The position numbers and the translations under genes are program-made. Positions 4,944 to 40,355 of a stretch of DNA of 40,355 nt are shown here, piece by piece (within the stretch, counting starts at the first letter, position 1; every line of letters starts with the position of its first letter). This DNA comes from a virus, in IMG/VR virus record IMGVR_UViG_3300044960_000297, positions 1 through 40,355 of that record; one strand, given 5' to 3'. The notes under the pieces were generated by a model. The model did no database searches, was not told the origin of the DNA, and worked only from the letters and a program-made list of their open reading frames with translations.

Positions 4944-5036
4944 AGGGCTTTAGTAGCGAATCCCATGATCGAAAGCAATAGGAACCACATGAATTGGTCG
5001 CTTTACGGCGGATCGCAAAGCAGCTAGAAAAAGAGG

Positions 5037-7597: not shown

Positions 7598-9259
7598 ATG
7601 CCCGCTCTCGATACTCGCGCTGGACTGTTGCGCAGCCGCTATGAGGCGGCTCTTGCCGTGCGCCGTGAGCGCGAGGGCTTGTGGCGCAGTCTACAGGCGG
7701 TAGTCCAGCCGACGTCCTTGTCCTACGAAGAGAACCAGGGTGCGGCGGACACCCGCGAGCGGCGGCTGCTTGACAGCACGGCGGCGGACTCCTTGGAGCT
7801 TTTCGCTTCGTTTCTTATGTCGGAGGTCTTTCTCGCGGGGACTTCCGACGCTGCCATTCGCTTTGTGCCTTCCGATCGGCTGGGGGTGCCTGTCAGGCCG
7901 CATCAGCTTGATCTGGCGGCCCAGCAGTGGTTGCAGGATGTCGCTTTCGCCCTGACTTCCGTCATGTTCTCCGGCAGGAAGTCCGGCGTTGCTGCCATTC
8001 ACAATCTGTGTCTTGATCTTGGTCTCTACGGGGCGGCGTGTATTGCCGTCTGGCGGAGCAAGGACCGGGACGATCCGCTGCCGGTCTTTCGGCACTATCC
8101 TGTCTGGCAGGTCGCGGGCGACAGCGAGGCGGTCTACATCCTGGACGTGATGTCGGCCAGACAGGCCCGTTCGCGCTGGCCGGAACACGATGCTCTGTTT
8201 TCTGCGCGTGTGGCGCATGATCGTCCTGATGCCGTTCAGATTGTCTATGCCTGCCTGTCGGCCAAGGACCCGGACATCGACGATCTGGTCTCGCCCGGCA
8301 TGCGGGCGCTCGGTGCGCCGTATTACGGCGTGTGGATGTATGAGAACAATATTCTGGCCGAGGAACGTTACACCAGCAAGCCGGTGATCTTTGCGCCGTG
8401 GTATAGCGTAGACAATACGCCGTGGGGCCGGTCGCCCGCCATGACGGCGCTTGGTGACGTCTTCCTGGTCAACAACCTCTCTGACATCACCATGCGCGGC
8501 GCGGAGAAGCTGGTTGATCCTCCGCTTGAGGTCCGCGACGGCGCTCTGCTTTCTCCCGCCCGGCTCTATCCTGGTGGGCTGACATATACCGACAGTGACA
8601 ACGCGGCCTTGAAGCCTATCATTCCTCCGGGTGCGAGCCGTATTGAGGTTGGCGTCGAGCTTCTGCGGGACCGGCAGGCCAGGATCGAGCGGGCGTTCTT
8701 CCTTCCGCTGTTTCAGACTGCTAACCCCACCGGCAGCAAGCAGCCCCGCACGGCGTATGAGGTCGCACTGGAAAAGGACGAGCGAAGCCGCGCTATTGCG
8801 CCCATGGTCCTTCGGATCATGGGCAGTGTCTTGGAGCCTCTGGTCCAGCGGCTGCTCGACGTGCTTCTCCGGGACGGCCTTCTTCCTCCGATGCCGGCGT
8901 CGCTCGGCGGGTTCCAGTTGAAGGTGATGACCAATAGCCCGCTCGTCCTGGCGCTACAGCAGACCCGCATGGCCGGGCTTGAGCGCTGGGTTCAGGCGGT
9001 GTCTGTCCTGGCGCAGTCCACCAGCAACCTTGATCCGCTGGACAACATCAATGTGGACAAGGTTGTTCGAATTCTTCATGGGGCTTTCAATGCTCCGGCT
9101 GAAATTCTTCGCTCGCATAGCGAGGTCGAGGAATTGCGGCGGCGGCGCGTTGAGGCTGCGTCGACCATGGCCGATGCTGAGGCTGCGGCAGTGAGTGCCA
9201 AGGCGGCCGCTCAAATGTTGACCGCCGCCAATAAGGCAGGCATAATCGGCACTCGATGA
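7598..9259 (+). CDS. Portal protein (head-to-tail connector)
   Basis: A 553-residue portal of the T7 gp8-like head-tail connecting family. It forms the dodecameric ring at the unique capsid vertex through which DNA enters and leaves. Family-typical segments are visible: REGLWRSLQAVVQP near the start, DSTAADSLELFASFL, NLCLDLGLYGAACIAV, NTPWGRSPAMTALGDV and KLVDPPLEV. QTANPTGSKQPRTAYEV and the helical C-terminus with VEELRRRRVEA follow. Length is normal for the family. The stop overlaps the next ATG (ATGA). Confidence 0.93.
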   Translation: MPALDTRAGLLRSRYEAALAVRREREGLWRSLQAVVQPTSLSYEENQGAADTRERRLLDSTAADSLELFASFLMSEVFLAGTSDAAIRFVPSDRLGVPVRPHQLDLAAQQWLQDVAFALTSVMFSGRKSGVAAIHNLCLDLGLYGAACIAVWRSKDRDDPLPVFRHYPVWQVAGDSEAVYILDVMSARQARSRWPEHDALFSARVAHDRPDAVQIVYACLSAKDPDIDDLVSPGMRALGAPYYGVWMYENNILAEERYTSKPVIFAPWYSVDNTPWGRSPAMTALGDVFLVNNLSDITMRGAEKLVDPPLEVRDGALLSPARLYPGGLTYTDSDNAALKPIIPPGASRIEVGVELLRDRQARIERAFFLPLFQTANPTGSKQPRTAYEVALEKDERSRAIAPMVLRIMGSVLEPLVQRLLDVLLRDGLLPPMPASLGGFQLKVMTNSPLVLALQQTRMAGLERWVQAVSVLAQSTSNLDPLDNINVDKVVRILHGAFNAPAEILRSHSEVEELRRRRVEAASTMADAEAAAVSAKAAAQMLTAANKAGIIGTR

Positions 9260-24320: not shown

Positions 24321-25991
24321 ATGGCGATGCTGTCTTTTCATCCTAGCCACAAGGCTTTCGTGTGGACCGGAACGTTTCAAGAGGCCAAAGACGCGGCCGG
24401 CGATCTGTCAGGCTGGACGCAGACCACTGTCGCACCCGCCGGCATGGTGCGGTATTACACGGCCGACTATCACACCCGGCCCATGTTCAATCCTTGGGCC
24501 GCTCTGCATTTCTGGACGGTAGCGGATGATGAGGCCAAGGCCGCCCTGAAACCGTTCAAGGAGCAATACGATCTGTCGTTTGCCCTGGACGCTCCGCCCC
24601 TCGACATTCCTCTGCCACCGGGCCGGGCGCTGTTCCCTTTCCAGGTGGCAGGCGTGTCCTACTCTCTGGCGAGACCGCATTCGCTTATCGGCGACCCCAT
24701 GGGCCTTGGCAAGACGGTCCAGGCCCTTGCCATGGTCAACATCACGATGGCGCGGCGCGTGCTTGTCATCTGTCCCGCTGCCGTTCTCTGGCAGTGGCGG
24801 GACATGATCAGGGATTGGACTGTTCCTCTGCGTCCCGGGCGGCCGGACGGCGTTTTCGTGATCGCAACGAAGCGGCATGGTGTCCACCCCACGGCTCGCT
24901 TCGTGTTGGTGTCCTATGACCGCATGCGGACGGAGATCGGCCGGGCTCTGGCGCGCGAGCGTTGGGATATGACCATTCTCGACGAGGCGCACTACCTGCG
25001 CAATCATAGCGCGCAGAGAACGCGGGCCGTCCTGGGGGCCTGGGATGAGCGCCAGAAGGCAACGTGGCCGGGGGTCGTAGACAGCAGCGCCCGCGTGGTG
25101 GCGCTGACTGGCACGCCGTTAGTGGCGCGGCCGCGAGAGTGCTACACGCTGGGCCGGGCTCTCGATTGGGAGGCTCTGGGCTGGATGTCCGAGGAAGCGT
25201 TCCAGAGCCGGTTCAATCCGTCCATGACGGAGTGGTGGGAAGACAAGAGCGGGCTCATGCGCCCGCGTCTGATCGAGCGGGTCGGCCGTTTGCCGGAGCT
25301 TCAAGCCCGCCTTCGTTGCGGCTTCATGGTGCGCCGAGAGAAGGAAGCAGCCGCGCCGCAGCTTCCGGCTAAGCTATATTCGGTAATCGAGCTTGGCAAC
25401 GCGGAGACTGACTGCATCGTGCGGGCCGAGAGGCTGCTTGATGTCGATCCTTCCAGCCTTGAGGACATCCCCATTGAGCTTCGCGGCCATGTGGCGGCTC
25501 TCCGCAAAGAGATGGGCATAGCCATGGTTCCGCTGGTGGTGGACTATGTAAAACTGCTGGCGGAGGGAGCAGAAGATGAGCCAGTGGTGCTTTATGCTTA
25601 CCATCTGGAAGTAATCGCGCAGCTTGCTGAGAAGCTCAAGTCGTTGAGGCCCGTCGTTGTGACTGGTTCTACTTCACCTGTTCTTCGCCAGAAGGCGACT
25701 AAGACTTTCGCGGCCGATCCCAATTGCCGGCTGTTCATAGGACAGTTGCAAGCGGCTGGCACCGGCATTGACGGCCTACAGACCCGGGGGCGGCGTATCG
25801 TGTTCGCGGAACCGTCATGGTTGCCATCCGAGAACGAGCAGTGCGTCGATCGGCTGCACAGGGTCGGGCAGACGAGGACCGTGCAGATAGATTTCCTGGT
25901 GCCCCGGGACAGCATGAATGCCCGCATCATAAGCCGGGCAGTCGAGCGGCTGCGGGTGATCCACGTTGCGCTTGACAGCCGGGCAGCGTGA
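24321..25991 (+). CDS. SNF2-family DNA translocase/helicase
   Basis: A 556-residue helicase of the SWI2/SNF2 superfamily 2 group, which uses ATP to move along duplex DNA. Motifs are in order: FPFQ (Q-like, 106-109), Walker A DPMGLGKT (125-132), LVICPAAVLWQW (Ia), DEAH (221-224) and LTGTP (262-266). In the second RecA domain come VLYAYHLEVI, GLQTR and motif VI CVDRLHRVGQTR. The compact size and a single-gene layout fit the phage and SMARCAL1-like branch used for fork remodelling or strand annealing. It opens the replication/recombination block. Confidence 0.93.
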   Translation: MAMLSFHPSHKAFVWTGTFQEAKDAAGDLSGWTQTTVAPAGMVRYYTADYHTRPMFNPWAALHFWTVADDEAKAALKPFKEQYDLSFALDAPPLDIPLPPGRALFPFQVAGVSYSLARPHSLIGDPMGLGKTVQALAMVNITMARRVLVICPAAVLWQWRDMIRDWTVPLRPGRPDGVFVIATKRHGVHPTARFVLVSYDRMRTEIGRALARERWDMTILDEAHYLRNHSAQRTRAVLGAWDERQKATWPGVVDSSARVVALTGTPLVARPRECYTLGRALDWEALGWMSEEAFQSRFNPSMTEWWEDKSGLMRPRLIERVGRLPELQARLRCGFMVRREKEAAAPQLPAKLYSVIELGNAETDCIVRAERLLDVDPSSLEDIPIELRGHVAALRKEMGIAMVPLVVDYVKLLAEGAEDEPVVLYAYHLEVIAQLAEKLKSLRPVVVTGSTSPVLRQKATKTFAADPNCRLFIGQLQAAGTGIDGLQTRGRRIVFAEPSWLPSENEQCVDRLHRVGQTRTVQIDFLVPRDSMNARIISRAVERLRVIHVALDSRAA

Positions 25992-32107: not shown

Positions 32108-32365
32108 ATGCCTGAGCAGCTTATGACCATCGCCGAAGCGGCCCGCTACTGCAGCGTCACGCCGAGCGCTATTCGGCGCGCCTTCCGGGAGAGCGGCGGA
32201 CCGCTTCACGAAATGGCGTCGCCCATGCAGTATGGGGCGCGCATCGTGCAGGGGGTCAGCAAGGCAGACGTCGACCGGCTCCGGGCCGCCGGTTTCCTGT
32301 GCAGCCGCCCCGGCCGGCGACGCGGCGGCATCACCCGGCGCAAGGTCTTCAACGCCGCCAGCTAG
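32108..32365 (+). CDS. Small helix-turn-helix DNA-binding protein
   Basis: 85 residues from ATG 32108, with GAGAGGG upstream; a GTG at 32096 is the alternative. MTIAEAARYCSVTPSAIRRA is a typical winged-helix/excisionase-like DNA-binding start. A possible wing (YGARIVQGVSKADVDRLRAA) and a strongly basic tail (RPGRRRGGITRRK) follow. It could regulate phage promoters, for instance the inverted repeat at 1293-1309, or assist primase loading; neither is shown. It is the only clear HTH protein in the window. Confidence 0.75.
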   Translation: MPEQLMTIAEAARYCSVTPSAIRRAFRESGGPLHEMASPMQYGARIVQGVSKADVDRLRAAGFLCSRPGRRRGGITRRKVFNAAS

Positions 32366-32376
32366 GAGGTAGCTCC

Positions 32377-32931
32377 ATGAATGAAGTGCTTGAAGCCGCG
32401 ATCAGGTGGTCGCGGCGGATGGACTGGCCTGTATTCCCAACCCGAAACAAAAAGCCATTGACGGGTGGGCAAAGTTGGAAGACCTACGCCAGCCGAAACC
32501 CGGACAAAATCCGGGCGATGGACTGGGAAGAGGCTGACGGCTACGGTGTCGCCCTGCCGGACGATTGGCTGGTCATCGATCTTGATGCGGTCGACAGCCC
32601 GCACGGGCCTAATCTTGAACCGGCAATGAAGACCTTGAAGAAGGAGATGCCGGGCGCGGCGGAGTGCATCCACAACGGCACGGCGCTTTGCGTTCTCACT
32701 CCGCGCGGCGGGATGCATGCCTATTTCCGGCACGACAAGTCTTTCGACCTCTCGCAGACGAAATACCCGAATGTTGATCTGCGCGTTGGTGGAAAGGGCT
32801 ATGTCGTAGGCCCGGAGAGCCCGGGCTATCATGTCATCATTTGGGGCGAAGCCGACGTGCGCCATGCTCTCAGCAGGCTTGATGCGCCTGTCGCACAGTG
32901 CCTCGCCCCTTTCCTGACCGCCCGGCGCTAA
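32377..32931 (+). CDS. Primase-polymerase (prim-pol) domain protein
   Basis: A 184-residue protein holding just the bifunctional primase/polymerase domain. Motif I is VIDLDAVD (D68, D70), motif II GGMHAYF (H114), motif III NVDLRVGGKGYVVGP (D134). TAGGAGGT gives a strong start. It makes primers for replication. In many phages this domain is fused to the helicase that follows. Here the frame stops at TAA 32929-32931 and the helicase continues in the -1 frame, with a slippery-type heptamer just before the stop, so a fused product by frameshifting is possible. Confidence 0.9.
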   Translation: MNEVLEAAIRWSRRMDWPVFPTRNKKPLTGGQSWKTYASRNPDKIRAMDWEEADGYGVALPDDWLVIDLDAVDSPHGPNLEPAMKTLKKEMPGAAECIHNGTALCVLTPRGGMHAYFRHDKSFDLSQTKYPNVDLRVGGKGYVVGPESPGYHVIIWGEADVRHALSRLDAPVAQCLAPFLTARR

Positions 32932-34337
32932 AAAGCCTATCCGCACAATCAAAGGCTGCTGCGGACCTGCTGCTGGGCGAAAAGGCTGACAATCAGCCGA
33001 GCGGAGAGGACCATCTTCGCTTCGTGCTGGCGTGCCATCTCCGCGATCTCGGCTTCTCGGAAGAGCAGGCCCGAGCCCGGCTGCACGTGTGGAACGAGCA
33101 TGAGTGCCGATATCCTCGGGACCCGGCCGAGATAGACAAGGCGGTCACTAACGCCTACACCTATGCGCGCGATGTGCCCGGCAACCGGGCCATCCCGACT
33201 GCCCATGAAGCTTTCGCCGCCAGGATCGAGGCGGAACAGCCGGAACCCGTGCCAGAGACACCGCTCGGCCGGATGCTGGCCACCCTGCGCTCCTACGGCT
33301 ACAGGGCGCACGGGCACACTGCCGATCAGGTCGACAGCATTCCGCCGCCGTCATGGCTTGTGCCGGGCTACATCATGACCGAAGGCTTTACCCTGCTCTA
33401 CGGTCCGCCCAAGAACGGCAAGAGCTACGTAGCCCTCGATCTTGCCCTTGCGGTCGTGCACGGCAAGCCGTGGCTTGGCCATGTCGCCCTGCCGGTCGAG
33501 CCCGGGGCTGTCCTGTATCTGGCGCTGGAAGGCATGTATGAGACGCTGCGCCGCGCCAAGGCGTGGTGCAAGCATCATGGCGTGGAACCTTCCGACAAGC
33601 TGTATGCCATCAGCGGCCTTCGTTTCTATGACGACAGCATCAATCCGGCGCTAAAGGCTGCCATCGCCGCAATACCGGACCTGCGCTGCATCGTCATTGA
33701 CACCCTGGCCCGGGCCGCCGTGGGGCTGGACGAAAACTCCGCCCGGGACCAGGGCTTCCTGGTCGATCGGCTAGATCGTCTTGCCGAAGATGCCAAGGTG
33801 CCGGTGATCGCCGTGCATCACACGGGCAAGGACGTGTCGCGCGGCACCCGAGGGTCGAACGCTCTGCCCGCAGCCGCCGCAGGGTCCATCCTGGTGCAGC
33901 GGCGCGACGATGGCTGTCTGGCGCTCAGTGTGACGGATATCAGGCGCGGGTCTGGTGGCCGGCCCATGATCTTGCGGCCGATCCCCGTCGAGACCGAGGG
34001 GGAGATCGTGTGGCAGGCGCGGCCGGACATGGAGGCGGACGGTGCGCCGGTGCCGCGCGGCAGCGTGGATGCCGAAATCCTGCGCGCGGTCGTGTCCGCC
34101 CTGTGCTCCGGAGTGGACACGGAAATCATAACCGAGAGCCGCTTCCTTGCGAAAGTCGCAGCCCATGCGCCCGCGCACCTCGACCAGACCGTAGTCAGGC
34201 GGACTGCCGAGCGGCTGCTCGACACGCTGCCGGCCCTGCGCGAGCGCCGCACGGCCCACGGCGTGGCCTTGCTACAACCCGAGGATCGGGCTACATTGGA
34301 GCGTCACTTAGAGGGACACAATGGCGAAGCAGGATAA
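32898..34337 (+). CDS. RepA-like replicative helicase (AAA_25) with primase C-terminal-like region
   Basis: Up to 479 residues if started at GTG 32898, inside the prim-pol gene and without a good ribosome site. Residues 20-95 (SGEDHLRFVLACHLRDLGFS, ARLHVWNEHECRYP) resemble the PriCT module that links prim-pol to helicase. Next come Walker A GPPKNGKS (169-176), VLYLALEGM, Walker B CIVIDTL (D268) and AVHHTGKD with RGTRGSNAL. It would form a hexameric ring unwinding DNA ahead of the polymerase. Lack of an obvious independent start supports production as a fusion by frameshifting or by coupling. Confidence 0.9.
   Translation: MPRPFPDRPALKSLSAQSKAAADLLLGEKADNQPSGEDHLRFVLACHLRDLGFSEEQARARLHVWNEHECRYPRDPAEIDKAVTNAYTYARDVPGNRAIPTAHEAFAARIEAEQPEPVPETPLGRMLATLRSYGYRAHGHTADQVDSIPPPSWLVPGYIMTEGFTLLYGPPKNGKSYVALDLALAVVHGKPWLGHVALPVEPGAVLYLALEGMYETLRRAKAWCKHHGVEPSDKLYAISGLRFYDDSINPALKAAIAAIPDLRCIVIDTLARAAVGLDENSARDQGFLVDRLDRLAEDAKVPVIAVHHTGKDVSRGTRGSNALPAAAAGSILVQRRDDGCLALSVTDIRRGSGGRPMILRPIPVETEGEIVWQARPDMEADGAPVPRGSVDAEILRAVVSALCSGVDTEIITESRFLAKVAAHAPAHLDQTVVRRTAERLLDTLPALRERRTAHGVALLQPEDRATLERHLEGHNGEAG
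32907..32965 (+). promoter_or_regulatory. Candidate -1 ribosomal frameshift site with pseudoknot potential
   Basis: The heptamer C CCT TTC (32907-32913) lies in the prim-pol frame as X XXY YYZ. Slipping by -1 continues into the helicase frame and bypasses the TAA at 32929. Downstream, AGCCT (32934-32938) can pair with AGGCT (32953-32957), and TCCGCA (32940-32945) with TGCGGA (32960-32965). The arms interleave as in an H-type pseudoknot. The spacer of about 20 bases is longer than the usual 5-9, which weakens the case. Confidence 0.4.
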
Positions 34338-40240: not shown

Positions 40241-40355
40241 CAGTATGTTCGCCGTTGTGGTTAACGACTCCGATACGTTTGCTGTTGTGGTTAACGACTC
40301 CGATACGTTTGCTGTTGTGGTTAACGACTCCGATACGTTTGCTGTTGTGGTTAAC
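40241..40355. repeat. Right copy of terminal direct repeat and 30-bp array
   Basis: It matches bases 1-113 exactly, then continues with AC into a fourth 30-bp unit where the left copy leaves the array. Units begin at 40261, 40291 and 40321. The right end of the non-coding stretch 40037-40355 consists of this repeat, the dispersed iterons and a GC-rich leader region; no gene is seen in it. Confidence 0.9.

Follow-up and report, generated by a model that had tools for sequence, protein, structure and literature searches.

A programmed −1 frameshift probably joins the primase-polymerase and helicase of a divergent phage lineage

The window analysed here, which is an entire virus record of 40355 bases, probably uses a programmed −1 frameshift to obtain two products from one replication locus, a 184-aa primase and a 653-aa primase-helicase fusion, as judged from its sequence. 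A sequence-only reading of this DNA had proposed that primase and helicase are joined in this way, and comparison with other phages supports the proposal: the frame relation, the overlap of the two reading frames and the lack of a conserved helicase start all recur in four relatives. Programmed −1 frameshifting itself is well known, but searches of the open-access literature gave no example in a prim-pol/helicase gene.

The prim-pol ORF (32377..32931; this feature and all those described below lie on the + strand) is taken as the 0 frame. It begins at ATG 32377, ends with TAA 32929-32931 and encodes a 184-aa protein that matches Pfam Prim-Pol PF09250 (E=1.7e-15; 58.2 bits, above the cut-off of 22.8), with the DLD, H and D motif residues all in place. 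Its ribosome-binding site, located by sequence and anti-SD energy at 32362..32371 in the TAGGAGGT region, is strong (AGGAGGT, −11.5 kcal/mol with anti-SD). The helicase frame (32883..34337) is −1 with respect to prim-pol: it opens after TGA 32880 and runs from 32883 to TAA 34335-34337. ORFs 32377-32931 and 32883-34337 thus overlap, and the helicase carries on in the −1 frame from within a prim-pol gene that stops at 32931, exactly as had been noticed earlier. The helicase is AAA_25/RepA-like (PF13481, E 3.9e-43; 147.8 bits, above the cut-off of 27) and contains Walker A GPPKNGKS and Walker B IVIDT. Its N-terminal part resembles PriCT_1 (PF08708) weakly, slightly under the cut-off (E 6e-4; 19.8 bits against 21.1), and is referred to here as PriCT-like only. 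Since the helicase frame is open only from 32883, any shift must occur in the 16 codons of 32883-32931.

This overlap holds a single X_XXZ_ZZN motif, the slippery heptamer C_CCU_UUC at 32907..32913 (C CCT TTC in the DNA). It is exactly in phase with the prim-pol frame, in agreement with the sequence-only reading. Among the 9320 in-frame codons of the genome, 2 carry a motif of the type H_HHU_UUY and 11 carry any X_XXZ_ZZN, corresponding to ~0.003 and ~0.02 expected occurrences in the overlap, respectively. All tetramers and heptamers were measured in E. coli by Sharma et al. 2014 (PMC4066793); C_CC.U_UU.C is named there as a high-level frameshifting motif, H_HH.U_UU.Y heptamers are among the best, and the tetramers rank A_AAG >> U_UUC > U_UUU. 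For E. coli, then, the earlier description of the heptamer as not among the most efficient does not hold, although E. coli may not represent the case of the host. Among the listed genes, the only other phased CCCTTTC lies at 24635-24641, within an SNF2-type helicase-like ORF (24321-25991); there is no reason to suppose that it is used.

Pattern scans of viral contigs using aligned helicases yielded four relatives with split genes: L099 (IMGVR_UViG_3300031812_000030), L100 (3300043543_000112), L101 (3300043543_000028, the same contig as L019) and L102 (3300028735_000040). They come from three other metagenomes, with protein identities to the window of 38-40%. Each of the four has its helicase in the −1 frame, overlapping the prim-pol end, and the local bases are different. 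In a phylogenetic tree the window and the four relatives form one clade (99/97), apart from the sampled single-chain relatives. The earlier view of related proteins as single fused chains is correct for distant relatives only, among which 17 ORFs carry Prim-Pol and AAA_25 in one chain; the nearest ones are split like the window, and none of them has a single open frame at this point. The arrangement is known from these five genomes only. Scans of viral and genome collections with patterns from single proteins gave no near relatives, and tblastn of prim-pol against phages gave no match at 1e-5. A search for prophage copies in bacterial genomes returned five weak matches, and the one inspected, L105, was of different architecture. 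L112, a prim-pol match, was rejected on the same grounds.

The slippery heptamer as such is not conserved. Each of the four relatives has an in-phase U_UUU followed by CC[CU]UGGGCCGCCGG, a weaker tetramer located ten codons before the stop, compared with five for the motif of the window. The codon preceding UUU encodes S, F, S and L, yet its final base is U each time, against a background of 8-17% T-ending codons at these loci. The window and its relatives thus have the type of slip in common (UUY to UUU) and differ in motif sequence. With regard to the two features that the sequence-only reading had singled out for comparison, the frame relation is kept in four of four relatives, and the heptamer only in kind, as a UUY-based slip. 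When the window and the relatives were inspected by eye for a shared upstream SD stimulator, only L099 and L101 had an AAGGA, at ~15 nt upstream.

The region between the two domains provides a further view of the −1 frame. Linkers in the five genomes are 30, 42, 42, 46 and 47 codons long, and all of them keep the −1 frame and are free of stops. Their variable columns fall 4, 5 and 8 times on codon positions 1, 2 and 3, a small third-position excess that agrees with translation. Within the overlap, the changes in the relatives track the 0 frame and so do not demonstrate translation of the −1 frame there.

Downstream of the heptamer, RNA folding predicts a set of nested stems. After a 5-nt spacer (32914..32918), the 5′ arm of an 8-bp outer stem, P1 (32919..32926, CGCCCGGC), pairs with its 3′ arm at 32972..32979 (GCUGGGCG); P1 encloses a 3-bp inner stem, P2 (32934..32936 with 32969..32971), which in turn encloses the inner hairpin P3 (32940..32965, UCCGCA/UGCGGA). 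A stem of at least 8 pairs that is equally close and of equal or better energy follows 1.4% of codons; the probability that both heptamer and stem occur by chance in the overlap of the window is ~0.003 x 0.014 if the two are independent. The predicted layout is the same in the window and its relatives (a long P1, a one-sided bulge of 7 nt in the 5′ strand, P2 and P3), with the nested long stem beginning 5-6 nt downstream of the slip site in all five genomes. When 171 windows of 90 nt were ranked by structure z-score across each locus, this region had z-scores of −4.7 (rank 1) in L099, −5.1 (rank 1) in L100, −2.4 (rank 11) in L101, −3.3 (rank 2) in L102 and −2.1 (rank 16) in the window. The predicted structure is strong in three of four relatives and moderate in L101 and the window. 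RNAalifold recovers P1 and P2 unguided, with U-A replaced by C-G in one pair of P2; covariation counts in four sequences are no higher than those in shuffles. A covariance model built from the relatives gives no match at the window site, where layout is shared and sequence is different, and thus does not establish that the RNA structures descend from a common ancestor.

The sequence-only reading had proposed an H-type pseudoknot at 32934-32965, at the end of a spacer of about 20 bases. The complementary segments are indeed there (UCCGCA 32940-32945 and UGCGGA 32960-32965, the arms of P3), and the pseudoknot, which begins ~20 nt from the heptamer, was set aside as the main stimulator in favour of the 8-bp stem. 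With P1 the predicted distance shrinks from 20 to 5 nt, and the nested long stem starting there is the likely stimulator.

Taken together, these features suggest the following mechanism. Ribosomes would begin at the prim-pol ATG 32377, and most of them would end at TAA 32929, giving the 184-aa primase-polymerase. Some would stall at the nested stem 5 nt past C_CCU_UUC, where the Pro and Phe tRNAs may re-pair on CCC UUU and reading would continue in the −1 frame to 34335. The product would be a Prim-Pol/linker/AAA_25 helicase fusion of 653 aa, composed of 179 prim-pol residues and 474 of the −1 frame, with the junction peptide ...CLAPFPDRPALK; the helicase would be made only, or mainly, as this fusion. 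The frames, the motif, the potential for structure and the conserved arrangement are seen in the sequences; we infer slippage itself and, with it, an efficiency that would govern the ratio between free primase and primase-helicase. The likely purpose, by analogy with dnaX and its tau and gamma products, is to set this ratio. For the lineage as a whole we consider it likely that the replicative primase-helicase is recoded, that a UUY slip stimulated by a long nested stem sets the ratio, and that this has been kept over ~60% residue divergence.

The best-surviving alternative, which we regard as improbable, is that two separate proteins are made, with the helicase starting at GTG 32898 or GTG 33024 and coupled to the prim-pol end. 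Phages often have overlapping genes with coupled translation, and some other genes of the window also lack an SD. GTG 32898 is the sole ATG/GTG/TTG of the helicase frame inside the overlap, and the codons opposite it in the relatives are NTG, three times CTG and once TTG; it has no SD (+0.6 kcal/mol), which bears out the earlier remark that the helicase lacks a good ribosome site. The next candidates are GTG 33024, with GGAGAGG ~14 nt upstream, and then GTG 33087; a start at 33024, however, would truncate the PriCT-like region. No helicase start codon is conserved among the window and the four relatives. In L102 the helicase frame has no ATG/GTG/TTG before 5007, 62 nt beyond the prim-pol stop, and the TTG at 5007 is not conserved. 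Two separate proteins would moreover have no need to hold the −1 frame across changes in linker length, nor to have a motif and a structure at the right spacing.

A change of frame made by RNA polymerase slippage instead of the ribosome is very unlikely. The relatives do have runs of 4-6 T adjoining CCC, but these runs are short, and the window has CCCC and TTT only; reported bacterial transcriptional slippage involves runs of ~9 A or T (PMC5009743). That a gene truly in one frame was broken by a mistake in sequencing or assembly, or by a recent frameshift mutation, has next to no probability: the distant relatives are single chains and the record comes from IMG/VR, a collection of assembled viral contigs, but the same −1 break occurs in four other contigs, drawn from three further metagenome data sets, at ~39% protein identity to the window and with different local bases, which excludes the sequencing error that had been offered as an alternative. 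Judged by these sequences, the split is real and old, not an error.

Programmed −1 frameshifting at the prim-pol/helicase junction has counterparts in several known systems. Bacterial dnaX similarly has a −1 slip in a replication gene, two products with a common N-terminus and a downstream stem-loop stimulator, and in a few bacteria its long form is the frameshift product, as here (PMC5009743). It differs in being a clamp loader gene with an A_AAA_AAG site and an upstream SD stimulator, no conserved counterpart of which was seen in the window and its relatives. In IS3/IS911 OrfA-OrfAB, two ORFs in −1 relation are likewise fused by slippage, with a structure a few nucleotides downstream, in IS911 one of elaborate nested stems (PMC4066793, PMC5009743); that system produces a transposase and mostly uses A_AAG-type motifs, whereas here a phage primase-helicase is combined with UUY-type motifs. 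The phage tail assembly chaperone G/GT is also a conserved-frameshift gene pair in which one product is an extended form of the other, but it serves tail assembly, not replication. Single-chain Prim-Pol-PriCT-AAA_25 phage proteins (e.g. L002 and L005) have the same domain order and similar length (~600-690 aa for the nearer single-chain relatives vs 653 for the predicted fusion), but are encoded in one open frame without a separate primase product. Phage T7 also makes two primase-helicase forms from one gene, gp4A and gp4B; it does so with an internal start and its short form is helicase only, in contrast to a frameshift and a primase-only short form here.

Documented phage frameshifts are mostly in tail chaperones. 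In the open-access literature we came across no programmed frameshift assigned to a prim-pol/helicase gene, and no recoded primase or helicase in PMC3711429, PMC10885494 or PMC5009743. If the frameshift does set primase-helicase tethering, a subunit ratio of a phage replisome would be a coded and testable quantity. Gene callers would then misannotate the helicase start in such phages.

The surroundings of the locus offer further observations. The gene order polA, metallophosphatase-like gene, small upstream gene, prim-pol and helicase is found in both the window and L019. A head-tail connector/portal-like protein is encoded at 7598-9259, with 23-27% identity to the Pelagibacter phage HTVC010P and Bordetella phage BPP-1 groups; no phage in the collection is closer by this protein than these groups, which places the window in a divergent podovirus-like lineage. 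The same 30-bp tandem repeat occurs at both record ends (7-113 and 40247-40355), which suggests a near-complete genome that is terminally redundant or circular; despite this common unit, the ends do not form an exact direct repeat. The first kilobase is rich in more tandem arrays, at 256-342, 550-630 and 729-937, with units of 18, 41 and 21/62/83 bp.
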